Shown: positions 1 to 27,703 of the stretch, piece by piece
Numbering within the stretch: the first letter of the stretch is position 1
How the letters are laid out: the number at the start of each line of letters is the position of its first letter
NCBI GenBank assembly: GCA_027449025.1
Contig: DAIDMK010000015.1
Location: forward strand, 1-64,000
Origin: Lutibacter sp.
Lineage (GTDB): Bacteria > Bacteroidota > Bacteroidia > Flavobacteriales > Flavobacteriaceae
Length of the DNA stretch: 64,000 nt
Direction of reading: 5' to 3'
Notes under the pieces: generated by a model
Database searches by the model: none
The model's input: the letters and a program-made list of their open reading frames with translations, nothing else
What the model was told of the DNA's origin: nothing
Program-made: the position numbers and the translations under genes

Positions 1-1256
1 TTACTGTTAACAGCTATTGAAGTAGCATTATTTACCGGAACTACAGAAAGCACTGTTGGTGCAGTTGTATCAACAACTGGGGCAAGCGTTGTAAAACTCC
101 ATACTTTTGAAGCAGTAAGTGCATTTCCAGCAACATCTTTAGCGCCTGTGGTAATTGTTGCCGTATAAACCAATCCGGCATCAAGATCGCTGATTGGGTT
201 AAAAGTAGCTGTAGTGCCTGAATAAGATACTGACCCTGTTATATTTGTTGCTCCTTGTTTTAGGGTGAAAGTGACTGTTGAAAGGGTTGATGCATCCATC
301 GCTTCACTGAAAGTTGCAGTAATATTACTGTTAACAGCTATTGAAGTAGCATTATTTACCGGAACTACAGAAAGCACTGTTGGTGCAGTTGTATCAACAA
401 CAACGCCATCTCCACCTGTAGTAAAACTCCACACATAGGTATTCGTTGAATGATTGTCATCATCGTCATCGTTATCATCGTTATCATTATCATTATCATC
501 ATCATTATCATTATCATCATCGTCGCCTTCTTCATAATAATGATCATCATTATCATCTTCATCATCACCATTACTGTTATCTATTATAATCGTTCCTGTG
601 AATAAAGTATTGGCTTCTAAATTACTTGTTGGAATAAATGTAGCAGTTTTATCGGAATAGGTTAATGAACCCTCAACAATTGTTGTTCCATTATTTAAGG
701 AAAATGTTACCAATTCTGCCATATTTGAATTTATTTCCCTGCTGAATTTAATGGTGGGATGAACGTCAAACGCTACGTCAGTCTCATTATTCAGGGGGGT
801 TACCGAAACAACTGAAAACGCTTTCTCATGGTGGTGATCATCAGTTCTAAATGTCCAAGAATGTTCCTTTTCGTTATCATTGGAGGAGCCATCCTTTAAA
901 TTGGTTTTTATCGTTGCAGTAAACTGGGTATTAGGCGTCAGATAAGCATCTGGTCTAAAAACAGCAGTGGTTCCTGAAAAGGTTACCTTTCCAGAAATTG
1001 TTGTTGTCCCTTGTTTCAAGGTTAAGATAGATGCCGCTACTTCTGACGGATTAGCAGAACTTTTAAAATTCACGATTATCAGAGGATTAACAGCCACAGT
1101 TTCTGCAAGATCTGCAGGAAATGTTTCTTTAAGACCTGCTTCTTCAAGATTTACATCTAACTGATTTGTTGTGATGCCCTCATCACTCGAACAACTAGTC
1201 ACTAAAACAACAAATGCTACCGCAAGAGTTGCCGATAAATTTTTTAATAATTTCAT
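1..1256 (-). CDS. Ig-like repeat lipoprotein with Asp/Asn-rich tract (partial, runs off left edge)
   Basis: The reading frame is open from the ATG at 1256 to base 1 (418 codons and no stop), so the C-terminus lies outside the window. The N-terminus is a lipoprotein signal peptide with lipobox LVTSC, followed by SSDEG; acidic residues just after the lipid Cys fit a surface-exported Bacteroidota lipoprotein. Then come bacterial Ig-like (Big_5/SbsA type) domains at roughly residues 40-130, 139-275 and 285-395, and the start of a fourth. Recurring signatures are SVVPVNNATSIAVNS, TATITTGAKD and WSFTT. Domain 2 carries about 40 Asp/Asn residues (about 228-268), encoded by runs of GAT and AAT, in a loop where domain 3 has only a short segment. 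Bases 1-77 and 325-401 are identical. It probably binds a ligand or cations at the surface, which is inference. It lies downstream of the TonB receptor and has its own GTAGGG/TGTTATA motif at 1411-1439. Confidence 0.88.
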   Translation of the reverse strand, partial: MKLLKNLSATLAVAFVVLVTSCSSDEGITTNQLDVNLEEAGLKETFPADLAETVAVNPLIIVNFKSSANPSEVAASILTLKQGTTTISGKVTFSGTTAVFRPDAYLTPNTQFTATIKTNLKDGSSNDNEKEHSWTFRTDDHHHEKAFSVVSVTPLNNETDVAFDVHPTIKFSREINSNMAELVTFSLNNGTTIVEGSLTYSDKTATFIPTSNLEANTLFTGTIIIDNSNGDDEDDNDDHYYEEGDDDDNDNDDDNDNDNDDNDDDDDNHSTNTYVWSFTTGGDGVVVDTTAPTVLSVVPVNNATSIAVNSNITATFSEAMDASTLSTVTFTLKQGATNITGSVSYSGTTATFNPISDLDAGLVYTATITTGAKDVAGNALTASKVWSFTTLAPVVDTTAPTVLSVVPVNNATSIAVNS

Positions 1257-1410
1257 TTTTTAAATTTTTTAATTAAATAATTCTTGTTAAAAAAATCAAT
1301 CCTCTTCATCAGATGGATAATATGAATAAGTATAATATCTTTTCAACCTTGAAATCTATCTTATAGTAGTTTATATTCCATTTGTGTGTAAAAAGTTACC
1401 ATACATATTT

Positions 1411-1439
1411 TATAACAGGCAACAGAGAGAAAACCCTAC
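1411..1439 (-). promoter_or_regulatory. putative ECF sigma promoter, copy 1
   Basis: Read on the minus strand, GTAGGG (1439-1434) is followed by exactly 16 bases and then TGTTATA (1417-1411). The same two boxes with the same spacing occur at 5207-5179 and 5790-5818. The Ig-like lipoprotein starts at 1256, giving a leader of about 145 nt. Assignment to the sigma factor encoded at 5215-5730 is inference from position and repetition. Confidence 0.7.
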
Positions 1440-1530
1440 CATTAAATCAAAAGGTTTAAATAAAAAATTTAATTTGTATCACAATAGGCTATTTTTGTTA
1501 ATAATAATGCCCTATTAATAATATTAATTT

Positions 1531-4086
1531 TTAAAAAGAAACTCTGAAAGTGAAATTGGGAGTTGTGGCTAAAGCAACACTATTAATGGTGTTTATGGTA
1601 CCTTCAGGAGTTATTTTGTAGTAAGTATTTAAAATATTTTTAGTATTTAAAATGTTTAAAATAGAAACACCTGCCATTGCAGCAACTTTTTTGTTAAGCT
1701 TAAATTTATAGGTTGATGAAAAATCAACCCTATAGTAATTTGGTAAATTATCGCTATTTGGGGAGTTGTAATTTATATAAGAATTAATGCCGTCAACAGT
1801 AATTGGATTGGCTTCTTGAGGTGTAGTATATGGTTTTCCATTTCGCCATAAAAGTCCGATAGCAAAATTAAATTTTTTATAAGTGTAGGTGTTTCCAAAC
1901 GAAATGCTATGTCTAATATCCAAATTATTCGGAAATTCACTAGGTGTTAACTCTGGAAAATTATAGGTGTTGTGATTATAGGTATAACCTAACCAAGTAC
2001 TAAAATCATCGGTTTTTCTATTAATTAAAAATTCAATTCCTTTTACGGAATAGCTTCCAGAAGTTTTTATATACTGATTTTGATTTTGAAATCCTTGATT
2101 TGCAGTTGTAATACCATCTACATATTTGTAAAATCCCTCTATGTCAATAAAAACATGTTGTTTGTGGAAATTAAATCCAGCAGAGGCTTGTTGGCTTTTT
2201 ATGATAGGTGTGGTTGTATTGTCGGCTAAAACCCAACGCCTTTTTTCAACCCCTAAAAAATCTTCTTGTAAATCTATAATTTGAGTGGCATTCTGACTTT
2301 TAAATTCACCAGCAATTTTAAACGAAAAATGTTTATTTAGCTTATGCAATGCCAGTATTCTGGGTTCAATAATAAATGTGTTAAAAGTTTCAATATAATT
2401 CAATCGCAACCCAGCATTCAAAAATGTTTTTTTGTTACCTGAAGTGTAATTAACCTCACTAAAAAGCGAATGATTTCTTAGTACCTTTTTAATAATCCTA
2501 CTGTATTCCGGAATATTTACAACCTCAGCATTTGTAATTCCCAATTCATAAAATTGATAACCATTTAACAGTTGTATTTTTTTTGAAATGGAATAATAGG
2601 TGTTTAATTTTAAGCCTGTTTCTAAAACTTCATTGCGCTGTTGTAAAAGCTGCTCTGTAAAAAGTGATTGATTTGAAGAATTTAGGTTGTATTTTGTATA
2701 ATAAGCATTAAAAACCGTTTTAAATTTTGAGTTCCAATTGTCGGTTAATTGAATTCCAAAACCTTTATTTTTTTGTTCTAAACTACTTTTTTTGTATTCC
2801 TCGTCAGTATCCATTTCTATATCGATTGCTTCTTCATAATCAAGTTCATTTTCAACATCTAAAAGGCTAAATCGCAATTGGTGTTTCTCATTAATATCAT
2901 ATAATAATTTAATGCTATAATCATAAAAATAAAAGTTTGAACCAGACTCAACTACCTCGTTATCTGTAGTTGAATAAGTAGAAACTTTAGAATTTTGAAA
3001 CGCACGATTATAATATTGTTCGAAGGTTAATGAGTTCCACAAATCAGTAAAAGAACGTCTTCCAGATACTTGAATTGCTAGTTTTTTTGAAATTGGTATT
3101 TGCCCATAAGCATCGGCACTCAGTAAATTAATACCGACTCCGCCAAATGGTTTTTCTTTTATTTCATTAATTGATTCAATAGAAATAGTTCCCGAAACAC
3201 CATCATTATATTGGGAATCGGTGCCATTTTTAATTACGGTGACATTTTCTGTCAAATACGGATTAAACGCAGAAATTAAGCCAAAAAAATGCCCTGAATG
3301 ATACATTTTTATACCGTCCCAAAGCAATAAGTTTTGGTCGTTTGTTCCCCCTCTAATATTAATGTCTGAAATAGTTTCATCAACACTACTTATACCTGGT
3401 AATGCTTGTATTTGATGTAAAACATCAGGTTCAACCAGTCCGGGTAAAATACCAAATTCTTGTGGGGAAATCACAAATGAGTTGTCGGTTTTTATGGTAA
3501 TTCCCGATGTTAAATAATTTTGCAAAATAATTTCGTTAAGTTCTTCAAATTTTTCAGTTAATGTGATTGTTAAACATTTATTAGTTAAAAACTCGGTAGA
3601 ATTTAAATACAGGGTCGGATAACCGATATGACTAATTTGAATTGTCTGGTTTTTATTAATTTTTGGGATACTAAAATAACCCACACTATTTGAGGTAGTT
3701 TGTATGTTTGTTTTTAAGACTGAAATATGAGCTCCTTTAAGTTGCAGCTTGGAATTAAAATCAACTAAATAGCCACAAATAATTTCAATATTTGTTTGAT
3801 TGCTAATTAAAATATTTGTTGAAGTTAAAAATGTAAATGCCAAGCCAGTCTTTTCTTTTAAATATTCAATGGTTTCTGGAAGTGTTGTTTTTTTTGAAGG
3901 TGGTATAATTTTAATAGTTTCAATTACTTTGTTGGCATAGGTAAAGGTAACTTCATATTCTTTTTCGGTTTCAACTAAAATTTCGGAAAGCAATTTATTT
4001 TCCTTGGTTAAATTTTGTGAAAAACTAAAAATTGAATAAAGAAGACAAGTAAAAATTAATAAAGACTTTAGTTTGTTAATTTTCAT
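1531..4086 (-). CDS. TonB-dependent receptor with STN signalling domain
   Basis: This is an 851-residue outer-membrane receptor. Signal peptide at 1-24 (ends FSFSQ); secretin/TonB short N-terminal (STN) domain at about 32-96; carboxypeptidase-D regulatory-like domain at about 103-175; plug at about 205-310 with DVLHQIQALPGIS and the conserved INIRGG; then a long beta-barrel ending in an aromatic residue (FRVSF). An STN domain marks receptors that pass an occupancy signal to a FecR-type anti-sigma factor, matching the FecR and ECF sigma genes immediately upstream. There is no SusD-like partner; the next gene downstream is the Ig-like lipoprotein. The substrate cannot be read from sequence; siderophore, metal chelate or peptide are all possible. 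The start codon lies in the arm of a hairpin (4084-4120). Probably transcribed with fecR. Confidence 0.93.
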   Translation of the reverse strand: MKINKLKSLLIFTCLLYSIFSFSQNLTKENKLLSEILVETEKEYEVTFTYANKVIETIKIIPPSKKTTLPETIEYLKEKTGLAFTFLTSTNILISNQTNIEIICGYLVDFNSKLQLKGAHISVLKTNIQTTSNSVGYFSIPKINKNQTIQISHIGYPTLYLNSTEFLTNKCLTITLTEKFEELNEIILQNYLTSGITIKTDNSFVISPQEFGILPGLVEPDVLHQIQALPGISSVDETISDINIRGGTNDQNLLLWDGIKMYHSGHFFGLISAFNPYLTENVTVIKNGTDSQYNDGVSGTISIESINEIKEKPFGGVGINLLSADAYGQIPISKKLAIQVSGRRSFTDLWNSLTFEQYYNRAFQNSKVSTYSTTDNEVVESGSNFYFYDYSIKLLYDINEKHQLRFSLLDVENELDYEEAIDIEMDTDEEYKKSSLEQKNKGFGIQLTDNWNSKFKTVFNAYYTKYNLNSSNQSLFTEQLLQQRNEVLETGLKLNTYYSISKKIQLLNGYQFYELGITNAEVVNIPEYSRIIKKVLRNHSLFSEVNYTSGNKKTFLNAGLRLNYIETFNTFIIEPRILALHKLNKHFSFKIAGEFKSQNATQIIDLQEDFLGVEKRRWVLADNTTTPIIKSQQASAGFNFHKQHVFIDIEGFYKYVDGITTANQGFQNQNQYIKTSGSYSVKGIEFLINRKTDDFSTWLGYTYNHNTYNFPELTPSEFPNNLDIRHSISFGNTYTYKKFNFAIGLLWRNGKPYTTPQEANPITVDGINSYINYNSPNSDNLPNYYRVDFSSTYKFKLNKKVAAMAGVSILNILNTKNILNTYYKITPEGTINTINSVALATTPNFTFRVSF

Positions 4087-4180
4087 CTGTTTAAATATTA
4101 TTTTTTAGCGGTAACAGATGCGGTTCGCCATTAATTATTCCTTTGTTTGTCAAAATTTGTCATGCTCGTTTTATTTATCA
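4084..4180. repeat. dispersed intergenic element, copy A (hairpin overlapping the receptor start codon)
   Basis: CATCTGTT (4084-4091) and AACAGATG (4113-4120) are an 8-bp inverted repeat. The reverse complement of bases 4084-4086 is the ATG of the TonB receptor. The hairpin and downstream blocks (attaat, cctttg, caaaatttg, atgct, ttttattt) recur in the same order at 51374-51515. In that copy the second arm is AACAGGTG, which still pairs in RNA through a G-U wobble. Confidence 0.6.
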
Positions 4181-4237
4181 TTTTCTATTGTTTTTTTGTC
4201 AAATGGAATGCCTAGCATCTTTCTTTTTTCTGTTAGA

Positions 4238-5155
4238 TTATTTTGTTGTAGGCGTTTCATCTAGTTTTAAATGCACTTTCTTATTGCTGATAATTTCGTA
4301 TTTTAGGTTTAAGGGAATGCTGATTGCCTGCAAAGCCAGTTCTAAATTTGAATGAATAAAACTCCCCGTAAACAAATTATTTTCATACTTAATATCATAT
4401 TCAATGGAAATATTATATTGTCTTTCCAATTCTTTTACAACATATTTATAGGGCATACTTTTAAATGAGCTGCTATTTTGAAGCCAAGCCGGCATTATTT
4501 CATTTGAGTTGTATGACAATTGAGAAACTTCATTGAGTATTTTATAGGAACTTCCGGCAGGAACCTTAACTGTTTCGTATTTAGAAGTTACACTTACTAA
4601 GCCTTCATAACAATTCACTTCAAAATATTGGTCTCTTTCAATAACGTTAAATTTGGTACCCAGAACCTGAACGGAACCCAAATTTGAATTTACCGTAAAT
4701 TTAGCCCCCTTTTTTACACTAAAATAAGCTTCGCCTTTTAAATTTAAGGTTCTGTTTTTTTTCCAATTTTTGGCATTAAAAGTAATTTTTGAATCAGCAT
4801 TTAAATGCACTTCAGATTGGTCCGGTAATTCAAAAGTGAGTTTCTCAGCTAAATTTGTTGTGTAGCTTGTATCTTTTGTTGAAATAAAATAATACGAAGT
4901 AATTAGCAAGGCAAATACGGCTGCAATTCTGTAAAAATATTTGGTAAAATCCAGCTTCTTTACAGTGGTTTTGACATGCGTTTTCTTTATCCTTTCTAAA
5001 GTTTCCTGAGCATTGTAACTTGGTGCTTCAAGTTGGTTTGTGGCTGAAATTATTTTTTTATACACACGTATTTCTTCCTCACTAACATGTTCCTTAAGTG
5101 TTTCTTCGGTTATTTCGCCATTAAGCCATTTTGCCAAAAAATAGTTTTTTTCCAT
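4238..5155 (-). CDS. FecR-family anti-sigma factor
   Basis: This 305-residue inner-membrane regulator has a cytoplasmic N-terminal segment (1-70) that would hold the sigma factor and one transmembrane helix at about 74-92 (FYRIAAVFALLITSYYF). A periplasmic FecR domain at about 96-190 contains LPDQSEVHLNADS and VQVLGTKFNV. A C-terminal DUF4974-like domain at about 232-300 usually contacts the receptor STN domain. It lies between the ECF sigma gene and the TonB receptor, the canonical order for cell-surface signalling. A GTAGGG-N16-TGTTATA motif at 5207-5179, just after the sigma stop codon, would let fecR and the receptor be transcribed separately from sigma, with a leader of under 20 nt. Confidence 0.95.
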   Translation of the reverse strand: MEKNYFLAKWLNGEITEETLKEHVSEEEIRVYKKIISATNQLEAPSYNAQETLERIKKTHVKTTVKKLDFTKYFYRIAAVFALLITSYYFISTKDTSYTTNLAEKLTFELPDQSEVHLNADSKITFNAKNWKKNRTLNLKGEAYFSVKKGAKFTVNSNLGSVQVLGTKFNVIERDQYFEVNCYEGLVSVTSKYETVKVPAGSSYKILNEVSQLSYNSNEIMPAWLQNSSSFKSMPYKYVVKELERQYNISIEYDIKYENNLFTGSFIHSNLELALQAISIPLNLKYEIISNKKVHLKLDETPTTK

Positions 5156-5178
5156 CTGTAAAATTCATATAACAGTTA

Positions 5179-5207
5179 TATAACAACTAAATAAAGGTTT
5201 TCCCTAC
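5179..5207 (-). promoter_or_regulatory. putative ECF sigma promoter, copy 2
   Basis: On the minus strand, GTAGGG (5207-5202), 16 bases, then TGTTATA (5185-5179). It begins 8 bases after the stop codon of the sigma gene and ends 24 bases before the fecR ATG. A second TGTTATA lies 11 bases further downstream (5174-5168). Confidence 0.72.
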
Positions 5208-5214
5208 TTTATTA

Positions 5215-5730
5215 TCAAATATTTTCAATTTCTTTTCTTAAACTTAACAAAGCGAGGTGTATTCTCTTCTCAACCGCTTTCACCGAAATTTCTAAAATTT
5301 CAGCAATTTCTTTGTATTTTTTACCATCAATTCTATTCATTAAAAAAGCTGTTCGTTGTGTTTCTGTTAAGTTTGAAAGTGCTTTTTGTAATTTTTTGTC
5401 AAACTCTTTTTCTTCCATTAAAAACTCCGGCGTTTCATGGGTGTATTTCTTTTGTGGGATGTTTTTAAAATTTAATGCCACCTTGCTTTTAGCATATTCA
5501 TTTAAAAATAAATTATTAGCAATGGTAAATAAAAAAGATTTTGCTTTTCCCGGAATTACTTTTTTGCAATTATCCCAAAATTTTAAAAAAGCATCTTGAA
5601 CAATATCATTTGCCAATTCTGTATCACCACATTTGTAGTACATATAATTGCGCAATAATACTGAATTATCTAAAAAAAAATCACTAAATTTTTTTTCATT
5701 ACAATACTCTTCATCAATATTATGATTCAT
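5215..5730 (-). CDS. ECF RNA polymerase sigma factor (FecI-like)
   Basis: This 171-residue sigma-70 family factor contains only regions 2 and 4, as ECF factors do. Region 2 at about 29-58 carries the DIVQDAFLKFWDN core-binding and -10 recognition helices. Region 4 at about 117-168 (LTETQRTAFLMNRIDGKKYKEIAE) is a helix-turn-helix for the -35 box. It heads the sigma / FecR / TonB-receptor cassette, so it is expected to be held by the FecR protein at 4238-5155 and released on receptor signalling. Its likely target promoters are the three GTAGGG-N16-TGTTATA sites around it. No such site faces the sigma gene itself, so direct autoregulation is not apparent. It is divergent from the Asp-rich lipoprotein at 5936. 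Confidence 0.95.
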   Translation of the reverse strand: MNHNIDEEYCNEKKFSDFFLDNSVLLRNYMYYKCGDTELANDIVQDAFLKFWDNCKKVIPGKAKSFLFTIANNLFLNEYAKSKVALNFKNIPQKKYTHETPEFLMEEKEFDKKLQKALSNLTETQRTAFLMNRIDGKKYKEIAEILEISVKAVEKRIHLALLSLRKEIENI

Positions 5731-5789
5731 AAATTTTATGAAAATTTCAGATTAATTTTGTCTATAAATATAATTATTTTAAAAAATAA

Positions 5790-5818
5790 GTAGGGTTTTT
5801 TCAAAATAAACTGTTATA
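5790..5818 (+). promoter_or_regulatory. putative ECF sigma promoter, copy 3
   Basis: GTAGGG (5790-5795), 16 bases, then TGTTATA (5812-5818), facing the Asp-rich lipoprotein gene at 5936. Transcription starting just after this site would give a leader of about 110 nt containing the inverted repeat at 5839-5904. Confidence 0.72.
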
Positions 5819-5838
5819 TGCATGATTGTGTAAATATT

Positions 5839-5904
5839 CCAAGAGGTTTCTAATATTATTAAAAACTAAAGAGTTTAATGACAATAAACCCCAAAACCTC
5901 TTGG
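5839..5904 (+). promoter_or_regulatory. structured leader: 11-bp inverted repeat with inner hairpin
   Basis: CCAAGAGGTTT (5839-5849) is exactly complementary to AAACCTCTTGG (5894-5904). Inside the 44-base loop is a second short stem, GTTTA (5873-5877) with TAAAC (5885-5889). The structure lies in the predicted leader of the lipoprotein gene at 5936. It could be an attenuator, an mRNA-stability element or a protein-binding site; the sequence does not decide. Confidence 0.5.
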
Positions 5905-5935
5905 TTATTTATAATTAATTTTAAATTTGTAACTT

Positions 5936-6991
5936 ATGAAGCATTTCTACAATTTATTTTTTCTAAGTTTATTTTTTGTGACGCTTAATTCTTGTCAGGA
6001 TGAAATATCACAAATTATAGAACCCGCCCAAGGTGAAACTTTAAAAGTAAACGCTAATGTAACCAATTTAGTGCAGCGCACAGTTACAAAAGATGGTTCA
6101 AAAGATAACATTATAGACAATTCAAGTTGTTTGGAAGTTCAACTTCCAATAATAGTAAGTGTAAACGGATTAGAAATTAACGTAAATTCAGATGATGATT
6201 TTGAAATAATAGAGGCTAATTTTGATGAATTTGATGACGATTCAGATTCCTTAGAAATATTTTTCCCTATTGAAATCATTTTAAGTGATTATTCCAAAAT
6301 AACCGTCAATACTCAAGATGAACTGGAAGCTTTAATTGAGAATTGTGGAGATGAAAACGAAGTGGATGACGATATTGAATGTTTAGATTTTATATATCCA
6401 ATAAGCTTGTCAATGTATAATTCGGAAAATCAATTAACTAAAACTGTGAGTGTTGAAAATGATGAGCAGTTTTACAAATTGATTGACGATATAGCTGATG
6501 ATGATATAGTGGTTATTAATTTTCCAATTTCAGTAATCCTTTATGATGGTACAGAAAGGAACATTGAAAATATGGAGATGTTAGAAAATGAAATCGAACG
6601 GGTTAAGGATATGTGCGATGAAGATGACGACAATGATTACGATGACGATGACTGTGTCGATTGTTCTCAAGAGCAATTAACCCAATTGTTAAAAACATGT
6701 TCTTGGACAGTTGATAAACTTGAAATTAATGATGTTGAGCAAACAGAGCAATATGAAAATTATACATTATTCTTTTTGGGTGAAGGAATTTTGAAAGCGA
6801 TTAACAATGGAAATGAAATCTTTGGAACTTGGAAAGTTGATTCATCTGATACCGAGATTTTATTAAAAATAAATTTTGAAACTTTAACCGATTTTTCTTT
6901 TGATTGGAAGCTTTATGAAATAAACGATGACAATGAGATTGATTTACGTTTTGAAGACAATAGATTTAAACTTGAAAAACATTGTGATTAA
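5936..6991 (+). CDS. Asp-rich repeat lipoprotein with C-terminal lipocalin-like domain
   Basis: The 351-residue product starts with a lipoprotein signal (lipobox TLNSC, Cys20) followed by QDE. Residues 65-228 contain four related units of about 40 residues, at 65-97, 106-138, 148-185 and 192-228. Each has a beta-like core (LPIIVSV, FPIEIIL, YPISLSM, FPISVIL), then a polar turn, then an acidic helix; most end near a Cys and are joined by Asp runs. A tract at 228-240 is almost all Asp. The C-terminal part (about 254-351: SWTVDKLEI, GTWKV, WKLYEIN) resembles the small lipocalin-like domains common in Bacteroidota. I do not recognise a named family for the repeats. Divergent from the ECF sigma gene and preceded by its presumed promoter. 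A role as surface ligand or cation binder for the receptor is inference. Confidence 0.85.
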   Translation: MKHFYNLFFLSLFFVTLNSCQDEISQIIEPAQGETLKVNANVTNLVQRTVTKDGSKDNIIDNSSCLEVQLPIIVSVNGLEINVNSDDDFEIIEANFDEFDDDSDSLEIFFPIEIILSDYSKITVNTQDELEALIENCGDENEVDDDIECLDFIYPISLSMYNSENQLTKTVSVENDEQFYKLIDDIADDDIVVINFPISVILYDGTERNIENMEMLENEIERVKDMCDEDDDNDYDDDDCVDCSQEQLTQLLKTCSWTVDKLEINDVEQTEQYENYTLFFLGEGILKAINNGNEIFGTWKVDSSDTEILLKINFETLTDFSFDWKLYEINDDNEIDLRFEDNRFKLEKHCD

Positions 6992-7285
6992 ATAAAGGGG
7001 TAGGCTACTGCGAAATTTCAAATAACATAGAAATTAACTTGGTTTTTAAACGTATCTAATATCATTTTTAAGTATCCCACATAATTTTTGTATTAAACAC
7101 AAAGGATTTTTACATCGGTTCTTAAAACCAAATCATGACGCCAATTGGTGTTAAAATTAGTGCGTAATAGTTAAAAAAAAATCATTTTCGTTTTTTTATA
7201 CTGCTTATAATATTTGATTAAATTATGTGTTTTTTTTAGATGTAATGTTCACAGAATCTAATTTTTTTATACTTCAATCATAAAA

Positions 7286-7612
7286 TTAATGTGAAACTAC
7301 TTTTAGTCCCACGATTGAAAAAATTAAAGTAGTTATAAAAAATAACCGCCAAAATGTGGCAGGTTCCTTAAATATAAAAATTCCAACGAGTACCGTGCCT
7401 ACAGCACCAATTCCTGTCCAAACAGCATAAGCCGTTCCGATGGGCAATTGTTGGGTCACCTTTATAAGAAGCAACATACTTATTGATAAACAAATCAAAA
7501 ATCCGATGTACCAATAAGTGGTTACAGTACCTGTTGATTCTCTAGCTTTTCCTAAACAAGCAGCAAAGGCTACTTCAAATAGTCCTGCTACAATTAATAA
7601 AATCCAATTCAT
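7286..7612 (-). CDS. sugE: small multidrug resistance (SMR) transporter, SugE/Gdx type
   Basis: The 108-residue protein has four hydrophobic helices, the usual SMR length. The essential helix-1 glutamate is present at residue 13 (GLFEVAFA). The signature LPIGTAYAVWTGIGAVG and the ending IVGLKVVSH match the SugE/Gdx branch, whose characterised members export guanidinium as antiparallel dimers, rather than the broad-specificity EmrE branch. It stands alone, with no second SMR subunit next to it. I looked for a guanidine riboswitch in the 365 bases upstream and saw none. Assignment to SMR is firm; the substrate follows from subfamily resemblance. Confidence 0.9.
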   Translation of the reverse strand: MNWILLIVAGLFEVAFAACLGKARESTGTVTTYWYIGFLICLSISMLLLIKVTQQLPIGTAYAVWTGIGAVGTVLVGIFIFKEPATFWRLFFITTLIFSIVGLKVVSH

Positions 7613-7977
7613 TTAAATATTACTTTCTAGTTATTTATTATTCAATTGTTGATTGATTGGTTTGTTTCAGCAAAACTGACAAAGGTTTAGGATGGGATAA
7701 AGTTAGTGGTTTTTAAAACAAGTTATTTGTTAAATTTAATAATTTGTATCTTTTGGTTTGGTTAAATTATAAGAATAGATTGGTTTTTTTAGTGTGTTGG
7801 CTAAATCAAAATCTGCTTCAATTAAGCAAATGAGCCATTCTCACAATTTTATTTTACCGTTAAAAACGGATTGGTATTTTATCGTTAAATTTATTTAGCC
7901 CATGGTATAAACTACGGACTTTATTGTTAGGAAATAACAACTTTGTGAAAGCGAAATTTATAATTGCTTCGCAAGAA
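7613..7977. other. intergenic stretch without recognised gene
   Basis: This AT-rich spacer of 365 bases lies between the SMR gene and the end of the efflux operon, both on the minus strand. It holds no plausible reading frame, clear terminator or consensus promoter. The only feature near the efflux-operon end is a weak 5-bp stem (GCGAA/TTCGC at about 7950-7972). Confidence 0.5.
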
Positions 7978-9279
7978 TTAAAACATCAAATTTCCGGCAA
8001 ATTCCTTTAAACTGATTTCAGATAGTTTTGCCCTGAATTTCGCATTGCTGTATCGTACAATCGCATTGATATAATTGAGTTGCGCCGTACGGAATTCTAT
8101 AGTTGGAATAGTCCCTATCCTGAACTTTTCCATAGTGATATCAAGGTTTTCCTTTGCAATGGCCTCATTGCTTTTCTCAAGTTCAATTAAGCTGATATTT
8201 GTTAAATAGGTCTGATACGCAGTCCCCAATTGTGATGTTAAAGTCTGCTTCTGCTGCTCAATTAACACATTTGTATTTTCAAGTTCGATCTTGGCTATTT
8301 TTTCCTGTTGATTTTGTGTAAAGCCATCAAAAAGATTCAGTCTTGCGCTAAATCCGTAGTTCCATCCCCGTGAGTTGGTACTGCTTGTATAACCCAAACT
8401 GGATTCTGATTCACTAAAAACGTAACCTGTACTGGCTGTTATGGTTGGGTAGCGCCCTGCCCTAACTTGTTTCAGTTGTAAACGGGCAATATTATTGTTG
8501 ATGATTTGTGCCTGCAACAGCGGATTTTGCTTTTGAGCCAGGGATTCGAGTTCAGGTAAAAAAAGTTGCGCTTCTATGGTTATTTCATTTAGCACCATAA
8601 AATCGATTTTGGTATCGCGCGCAAGAATTTCGTTCAATCTAATCTTAGAATTCACGAACAATTCCTTTTGGCGCAGGATGGTGGTCATATCAGTATTTAA
8701 ATCAACTTTTGCATTCAAGACTTCAAGTTTGGAGGCTTTACCAATTGTAAACCGATTATTGGCAAGTTTTAATCTTTGTTCTGAAATAACAAGGGTACTG
8801 TCCAATGCCGCAAGTTGCTGCTGCTGCTGCACCAAATCATAATAACCAATCATCACATCGCTTACCTTGCTAATAATAGCTTGTTTTAATTGCGCATCGC
8901 CCAGTTTTTCCTGTTCTTTCAATTGGTCATAACGCGCAAACATTTTGAAACCATCAAATAAGGTCCAATCCATCACAACGCCATAATTAAGGCTACTGTT
9001 TTTTGCATTATCAAGGTCAATTGAACTTCCGTCTGCACGGGTTTGTGAACTGTTCTGGGTACTGTTATTGTTGTTTAAGGTTGCGCCTAATGTAGGAAGC
9101 ATACCTGCATTCCCCATGCTCACTCCGGTTTGATCAATTTTTAACTCGTTGGATGCAATCCGTATTTGGTAATTGTTTTCAAGGGCAATTTTCACTGCGG
9201 CTTCAACCGTCAGCAATTCCTGTGATTGGGCTGCTGAAGCGAAGAAAAAAACCACAAAAAACTTTAGTATCTTATTCAT
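7978..9279 (-). CDS. TolC-family outer-membrane efflux protein
   Basis: The 433-residue product is the outer-membrane channel of the tripartite RND pump. The start at 9279 (MNKILKFF...) is preferred over an in-frame ATG at 9303. It gives a standard signal peptide ending AAQSQ and lies one base after the stop of the RND gene, as expected for translational coupling. The rest shows the two-fold repeated, coiled-coil-rich pattern of the family, with paired segments NYGVVMDWTLFDGF (first half) and NYGFSARLNLFDGF (second half) at equivalent positions. It is the last gene of the membrane-fusion / RND / channel operon, which carries visibly more G+C than the flanking genes. Confidence 0.94.
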   Translation of the reverse strand: MNKILKFFVVFFFASAAQSQELLTVEAAVKIALENNYQIRIASNELKIDQTGVSMGNAGMLPTLGATLNNNNSTQNSSQTRADGSSIDLDNAKNSSLNYGVVMDWTLFDGFKMFARYDQLKEQEKLGDAQLKQAIISKVSDVMIGYYDLVQQQQQLAALDSTLVISEQRLKLANNRFTIGKASKLEVLNAKVDLNTDMTTILRQKELFVNSKIRLNEILARDTKIDFMVLNEITIEAQLFLPELESLAQKQNPLLQAQIINNNIARLQLKQVRAGRYPTITASTGYVFSESESSLGYTSSTNSRGWNYGFSARLNLFDGFTQNQQEKIAKIELENTNVLIEQQKQTLTSQLGTAYQTYLTNISLIELEKSNEAIAKENLDITMEKFRIGTIPTIEFRTAQLNYINAIVRYSNAKFRAKLSEISLKEFAGNLMF

Positions 9280-27640: not shown

Positions 27641-27703
27641 AAAACGGACAAGTCACGACTTGTCCCTACTGTTAAAACGGACAAGTCACGACTTGTCCCT
27701 ACT
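27641..27703. repeat. tandem palindromic repeat (GGACAAGTC family), two copies
   Basis: Two copies of a 30-base unit (27641-27670 and 27674-27703) each contain the perfect inverted repeat GGACAAGTC / GACTTGTCC with a 2-base centre. A third, diverged copy lies at 42958-42977. Another dispersed-looking motif (cttcgactccgttcag) precedes them near 27596. Confidence 0.75.

Follow-up and report, generated by a model that had tools for sequence, protein, structure and literature searches.

Predicted promoters of a FecI-like extracytoplasmic function sigma factor in Lutibacter and their counterparts across Flavobacteriaceae

Among the common regulators of outer-membrane uptake in Bacteroidota are FecI-like sigma factors, which, to our knowledge, do not induce their own genes; little is known of the promoters they use in this phylum. 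The reference system is the ferric citrate system FecI/FecR/FecA of Escherichia coli, for which passages of the cited paper describe a sigma gene that is not autoregulated, fecI and fecR on one mRNA, and sigma-dependent transcription of the receptor from a promoter that precedes fecA (PMC9249621). Here, we describe a related locus in Lutibacter sp., at the start of contig DAIDMK010000015.1 (assembly GCA_027449025.1; positions 1 to 64,000, that is, 64,000 nucleotides (nt), are called the window). It holds a gene for a sigma factor of the extracytoplasmic function (ECF) type and three GTAGGG-N16-TGTTATA sites. These sites are very probably promoters for RNA polymerase carrying the ECF sigma factor of 5215-5730, with GTAGGG as the -35 and TGTTATA as the -10 box, in a surface-signalling circuit of the FecI/FecR/FecA type whose scaffold, with its fixed 16-base spacer, extends across Flavobacteriaceae. 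The features are:

1411-1439, minus strand: predicted ECF promoter site 1, GTAGGG-N16-TGTTATA; faces the Ig-like lipoprotein gene, whose ATG lies 154 nt beyond the end of the second box
5179-5207, minus strand: predicted ECF promoter site 2, between sigma and fecR; faces fecR and the TonB receptor gene, the fecR ATG lying 23 nt beyond the second box
5790-5818, plus strand: predicted ECF promoter site 3, divergent from sigma; faces the Asp-rich lipoprotein gene, whose ATG lies 117 nt beyond the second box
5215-5730, minus strand: ECF sigma factor, FecI-like, 171 residues, sigma70 regions 2 and 4 only (Pfam Sigma70_r2, Sigma70_r4_2)
4238-5155, minus strand: FecR-type anti-sigma factor, 305 residues (FecR PF04773, E 7.1e-19; FecR_C PF16344, E 5.5e-11)
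1531-4086, minus strand: TonB-dependent receptor (CarbopepD_reg_2, Plug)
3-1256, minus strand: Ig-like (Big_5) lipoprotein with an Asp-rich stretch, the gene being cut by the contig end (the window begins where the contig begins)
5936-6991, plus strand: Asp-rich lipoprotein, divergent from sigma, without a Pfam family at E <= 0.001
5765-5772, minus strand: possible housekeeping -7 box for the sigma gene (TATATTTA), found by eye, one mismatch to TAnnTTTG, weak

Like the E. coli system, the locus combines neighboring genes for an ECF sigma factor, a FecR anti-sigma factor and a TonB receptor, and its sigma gene has no site facing it, as the initial annotation had noted. Unlike in E. coli, a predicted ECF-type site separates sigma from fecR and a divergent one precedes a lipoprotein gene; because the former lies between sigma and fecR, the anti-sigma factor itself would be induced. 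The boxes also differ, and no test in Lutibacter implicates iron. An early general rule placed AAC in the -35 and CGT in the -10 box of ECF promoters (passages of PMC8103513). The Lutibacter sites resemble these classical promoters in the strict distance between their boxes, in the GT of the -10 box and in a -10 base that the specificity loop would read. They differ in the -35 box, which is GTAGG[G/A] without AAC, and in the -10 box, TGT[T/C], which has only GT in common with CGT.

Within Bacteroidota, ECF systems of the same phylum or family have been described, and some, like the present one, are paired with anti-sigma factors and TonB-type transporters. They include ECF sigma/anti-sigma pairs of Bacteroides thetaiotaomicron (PMC3878776), motif SM6 with a CGT box in Flavobacterium psychrophilum (PMC9723704) and SigP of Porphyromonas gingivalis (PMC4800418). 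The passages on B. thetaiotaomicron and F. psychrophilum contain no GTAGG/TGTT motif, and in 2020 a motif was known for none of the alternative ECF sigma factors of B. thetaiotaomicron (passage of PMC7366714). Prediction of ECF promoters has been called a challenge that needs start-site data (PMC3878776), and current prediction leans on autoregulated sigma factors (PMC8103513). A GTAGG/TGTT promoter was not found in the ECF literature searched (PMC11501099, PMC5613140 and PMC11637429 included), which comprised text passages, with figure logos, supplements and the main ECF classification outside its scope. Within that literature, the component parts of the locus are of known kinds, and what appears new is the class of promoter, the position of such a site between the genes for sigma and anti-sigma factor, and the letter code described below.

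The window holds exactly three matches to GTAGGG-N16-TGTTATA (1439-1411 and 5207-5179 on the minus strand, 5790-5818 on the plus strand), and 100 shuffles of the window hold none. Positions and orientations agree with the initial annotation, which had also proposed that the sites face genes of one locus (the Ig-like lipoprotein, fecR plus TonB receptor, and the Asp-rich lipoprotein); site 1 follows the TonB receptor gene. The second box of all three is TGTTATA, distinct from the housekeeping signal TAnnTTTG. Allowing two mismatches adds no site in the window, and shuffles then average 1.08 matches, with 10 of 100 reaching three. GTAGGG itself occurs eight times; the five words outside the sites, those at 27664 and 37156 that had been checked by eye included, lack TGTTATA at that distance. 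In the whole genome (3,340,972 bases, 136 contigs), a search with spacers of 14-18 returned the same three sites only, all with a spacer of 16. A reversed control pattern gave 1 match, and independent letters predict 0.13 sites for one spacing. The check proposed with the initial annotation, a genome-wide search set against random expectation, thus confines the sites to one locus in this genome.

Counterparts beside homologous sigma genes were sought with the sigma protein in 249 genomes of the same family (own included), 179 of which had a match at E <= 1e-25. The first comparison set took in 130 of the loci listed, the window not counted, with 129 distinct sigma proteins. Each locus was scanned between 60 nt ahead of the sigma stop and 250 nt beyond it or, on the other strand, as far as 350 nt upstream. 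GTAGGG-N16-TGTT flanks sigma in 77 of these loci, on both sides in 60; each of the other spacers from 10 to 22 occurs in at most 2 loci, and the wrong orientation in none. That the remaining 53 loci use another signal was considered and rejected: word counts revealed GTAGGA-N16-TGTT in most of them, in the same places. The core GTAGG-N17-TGTT accordingly flanks sigma in 127/130 loci (126 if flanking bases are required), on the fecR side in 110, and any other spacing from 10 to 25 is limited to at most 4 loci, with none in the wrong orientation. A second scan, of named genomes, gave 80 loci, mostly from Flavobacteriaceae genera (Flavobacterium, Tenacibaculum, Kordia, Winogradskyella and others) or metagenome-assembled genomes (MAGs), a few being labelled otherwise (a Saprospiraceae MAG, a Chlorobiota MAG and two Bacteroidetes MAGs). 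After removal of 20 loci already in the first set, the core was present at the same spacing in 58 of 60, on both sides in 43; other spacers reached at most 3 loci and the wrong strand 2. The strict spacing between boxes by which ECF promoters are judged is thus found here, together with a single orientation, and the conservation beside orthologous loci for which the initial annotation had asked is evident. The motif is a local form of a family-wide putative promoter class, GTAGG[G/A]-N16-TGT[T/C].

Homologous loci, many of them apparently syntenic, could carry similar flanks through descent alone, as DNA inherited or duplicated along with the genes. This is extremely improbable. Boxes and spacing are fixed while the spacer letters vary; the three places in the window have little in common beyond the boxes; and in 100/130 loci the motif stands on both sides of sigma in opposite orientation. 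The spacer had been described as 16 unrelated bases, which is right insofar as its letters vary, and too strong insofar as relatives tend to have a T and then A/T-rich bases after GTAGGG. By eye, L250, L261 and L264 seem to keep GTAGGG-N16 with the second boxes CGTTATA, GATTATA or GGTTATA. Many of the loci L065, L066, L068-L070 and L077-L083 lie near ffh/folD- and argS-like genes (named by eye from reading-frame starts), whereas the locus of the window adjoins a small multidrug resistance gene and a gene set resembling RND efflux.

The placement of the sites relative to the genes also suggests promoters. Across 219 loci, the second box lies at a median of 18 nt from the fecR ATG (quartiles 17-20). 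The motif faces the sigma gene in only 2/257 loci (L218, 300 nt upstream, and L338, 69 nt upstream), and TAnnTTTG faces it within 150 nt in 141 of the 257, compared with 56 for the reversed pattern, with a cluster at roughly 43-60 nt from where the sigma match begins. Since the motif rarely faces sigma and TAnnTTTG often does, transcription of the sigma gene would fall to the housekeeping machinery and that of the flanking units to the sigma factor. For the sigma gene of the window, the exact TAnnTTTG was not found, only the one-mismatch version listed above, the case for which draws on the clustering in relatives. Two conserved half-sites at fixed spacing could also be operators of an ordinary DNA-binding regulator acting on these genes. 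We consider this very unlikely: the two boxes form neither an inverted nor a direct repeat, the second lies mostly at 17-20 nt from the fecR start, like a -10 box, and the other genes scanned in the locus include no DNA-binding regulator.

The letters of the boxes provide further evidence. The 131 sigma factors (window included) were labelled by the sixth -35 base as G, A, mixed or none; on their tree, this label changes 13 times, compared with 47.8 times in shuffles. With paralogues added, the collection grew to 198 distinct loci, of which 191 have a site under a relaxed rule that was chosen once the data had been seen. As fourth -10 base, 153 loci have T, 29 have C, 1 has A and 8 have a mixture; 7 have none. 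Two sites of one sigma factor share this base in 153/161 cases (2,000 shuffles: mean 110, maximum 125), and the 182 clean T or C rows require three changes on the tree, far below shuffled rows, the method being a quick one and many branches weak. At both variable positions, G/A as sixth letter of the -35 box and T/C as fourth letter of the -10 box, the choice tracks the tree of the sigma factors. This tracking, and the fact that the letters differ between paralogues, speaks further against operators of an unrelated regulator and, together with uniqueness and conservation, supports the proposal of the initial annotation that the two boxes are ECF -35 and -10 elements.

In the Lutibacter genome, the gene for the second closest sigma factor (contig C65, 49% identity) lies between two sites, GTAGGG-N16-TGTCATA and GTAGGG-N16-TGTCTTA; no other GTAGGG-N16-TGTCNTA occurs in the genome. 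This paralogue has the same -35 box and spacing, and eight homologous loci have mixed letters at -10 base 4 under the relaxed rule, so that the three sites might also serve the paralogue, two circuits being one. Such sharing is unlikely: the TGTTATA and the TGTCNTA sites are each confined to the neighborhood of one sigma gene, and among 25 pairs from the 23 genomes with at least two strictly classified loci, 20 differ in -10 base 4 and 24 in at least one of the two letters. Shuffles gave a mean of 17.3 differing pairs, and 7 of 5,000 reached the observed 24. The pair test describes insulation and is no proof of selection for it, because the two loci of most pairs were retrieved with separate queries, each from another clade, a choice that favors difference. 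Both flanking -10 boxes of L267 read TGTA, a possible third letter. The paralogous sigma gene of the nearest relative (L223, G181:C3:86998-87510) has one TAG stop inside the match.

Which residues read the variable letter can be approached by analogy. In sigma H of Mycobacterium tuberculosis, the -10 bases are G, T and T, and the specificity loop takes up the flipped third base in a pocket (passages of PMC6411747); in E. coli RpoE, a swap of this loop redirected the choice between promoters differing in -10 nucleotides (passages of PMC8103513). If the G-T pairs are aligned, the variable base in TGT[T/C] would fall on the flipped-base position of sigma H. Residue 59, in the matching loop, is Asp or Glu in 25/29 TGTC rows versus 2/153 TGTT rows. 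Whether one scaffold, GTAGG-x-N16-TGT-y, serves the whole lineage of non-autoregulated FecI-like sigma factors in Flavobacteriaceae is an evenly balanced proposition; single-letter differences would then keep paralogous circuits apart (x = G or A; y = T or C, rarely A), with the specificity loop reading y and an acidic loop residue marking the main C-reading lineage. If true, a fixed scaffold with two informative letters would allow regulon prediction, and the separation of near-identical circuits becomes a directly testable question.

Several observations weigh against this reading of the letters and of the sites. All 25 acidic TGTC sigma factors fall into one tree group of 29 rows, the other four being mixed rows that also have Asp, and two further TGTC groups (L256/L263/L265 and L257) lack the acidic residue 59, having Met, Ser, Asn and Ser. 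Present in one of three C groups, the residue is suggestive and provides no independent evidence; as the full explanation of T/C it was rejected. The T/C letter is also associated, about as strongly, with many positions outside the loop, of which 41 ranks first, followed by 9, 78 and 14. For the G/A letter, residues 150, 158 and 139 are matched in association by 40, 38 and 75; we take 150 and 158 to lie in the recognition helix. Shared descent explains part of these associations. As to the sites, site 1 is known in this genome only and has no tested counterpart in relatives; 7/198 loci lack the motif at the expected place even under the relaxed rule set after looking; and the same-genus genome G047 has one string match and no sigma homologue at E <= 1e-25. 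A phylum sample of 296 genomes included 30 with a sigma homologue at this threshold, 26 of them of the same family (own included). Outside the family, L217 has GTAGGA-N16-TGTTCTA after sigma, and L218 has GTAGGG-N16-TGTTTTA 300 nt upstream, facing sigma, with the fecR start directly following sigma; L218 would be an autoregulated variant if the site is real. L220 and L221 have no site at the expected place. The wiring is, therefore, not universal. Finally, among 30 listed matches to the exact string in other genomes, 2 lie near sigma/fecR and 19 lie inside a stop-free stretch of at least 150 codons, which makes the exact string a poor stand-alone predictor there. Many matches before unrelated genes had been named as grounds for refutation; this applies to the exact string in other genomes, where it is unspecific, and not to the own genome, where it is confined to the locus.

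The spacing remains informative in those genomes. Among 150 matches listed, the spacer is 15 in 11, 16 in 119 and 17 in 20, and 29/119 listed N16 matches lie within 1.5 kb of a listed sigma gene compared with 0/31 at spacers 15/17, the list of sigma genes being partial. A spacer of 16 is enriched well beyond sigma loci, and most such sites are unexplained. Twenty N16 sites away from listed sigma genes were hand-chosen in other genomes. L281 proved to be a sigma locus itself; six sites stand 25-35 nt ahead of a reading frame whose product, judged by eye, resembles a secreted protein or a lipoprotein, among them L282, which faces a homologue of the Asp-rich lipoprotein; and eight have no ATG reading frame of 60 residues starting in the stretch searched. 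In three genomes, remote sites (L013, L283, L289) lie 25-27 nt before lipoprotein genes, two or three of them similar by eye. The L013 and L283 lipoproteins contain a TDAP stretch and may be DUF4382-like.

Assembled into a circuit, these elements suggest the following sequence of events. The sigma factor would be supplied by housekeeping transcription and held by FecR until a ligand at the TonB receptor leads to its release. Freed sigma would then turn on fecR and the receptor gene, the divergent lipoprotein gene and the Ig-like lipoprotein gene, its own gene being left out, and would thereby restore its anti-sigma factor and receptor while putative surface lipoproteins are built. Paralogous circuits would differ in the sixth -35 base and the fourth -10 base on a common scaffold. 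The match of the sigma factor to NCBIfam TIGR02985 (117.4 bits) is under the cut-off of that model (126.4). A domain scan found no STN domain in the TonB receptor; an N-terminal stretch of 85 residues weakly matches FecR_C (E 0.0016, 18.9 bits versus a cut-off of 24.4) and is a candidate signalling domain.

The putative Asp-rich lipoprotein encoded divergently is a conserved partner of the sigma factor: in the 60 new loci, a divergent reading frame of at least 200 residues was present in 41, and 34 of these match the lipoprotein of the window (blastp). L080 has an extra site before a second lipoprotein of the same kind. Across 24 homologues, each family match is limited to at most 4 members, and the best (E 1e-4) comes from just one. 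A structure model from 24 sequences (mean predicted local distance difference test (pLDDT) score 83.6, predicted template modelling (pTM) score 0.59) shows a strand-strand-strand-helix unit repeated four times, a linker rich in Asp and, at the C-terminus, a barrel that Foldseek relates to lipocalin-like Bacteroides proteins (5byp, 4qrl, 4zgf; best E 2.1e-4). Surface exposure of the lipoproteins is plausible because the residues from the lipid-bearing cysteine onward, CQDE and CSSDE, resemble the export signals QKDDE and SDDFE (passages of PMC5080379). The Ig-like lipoprotein has a long Asp/Asn run between its Ig-like domains (440-560, minus strand).

An Rfam scan of positions 1-9000 gave no match at E <= 1. 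Between fecR and the TonB receptor gene, positions 4088-4262 belong to a dispersed repeat with 64 genome matches. Its units of about 88 base pairs are often arrayed in tandem, the terminal one being longer, and the repeat also lies near the paralogous sigma locus on C65; a single unit has no strong hairpin and no Rfam match. Right after site 2, TGTTATA recurs as a direct repeat (5168-5185, minus strand; TGTTATATAACTGTTATA). At 27641-27702 (minus strand), two identical 29-base stretches starting GTAGGGACAAGTCGTGACTTGTCC lie 33 bases apart, an inverted repeat inside a direct repeat.

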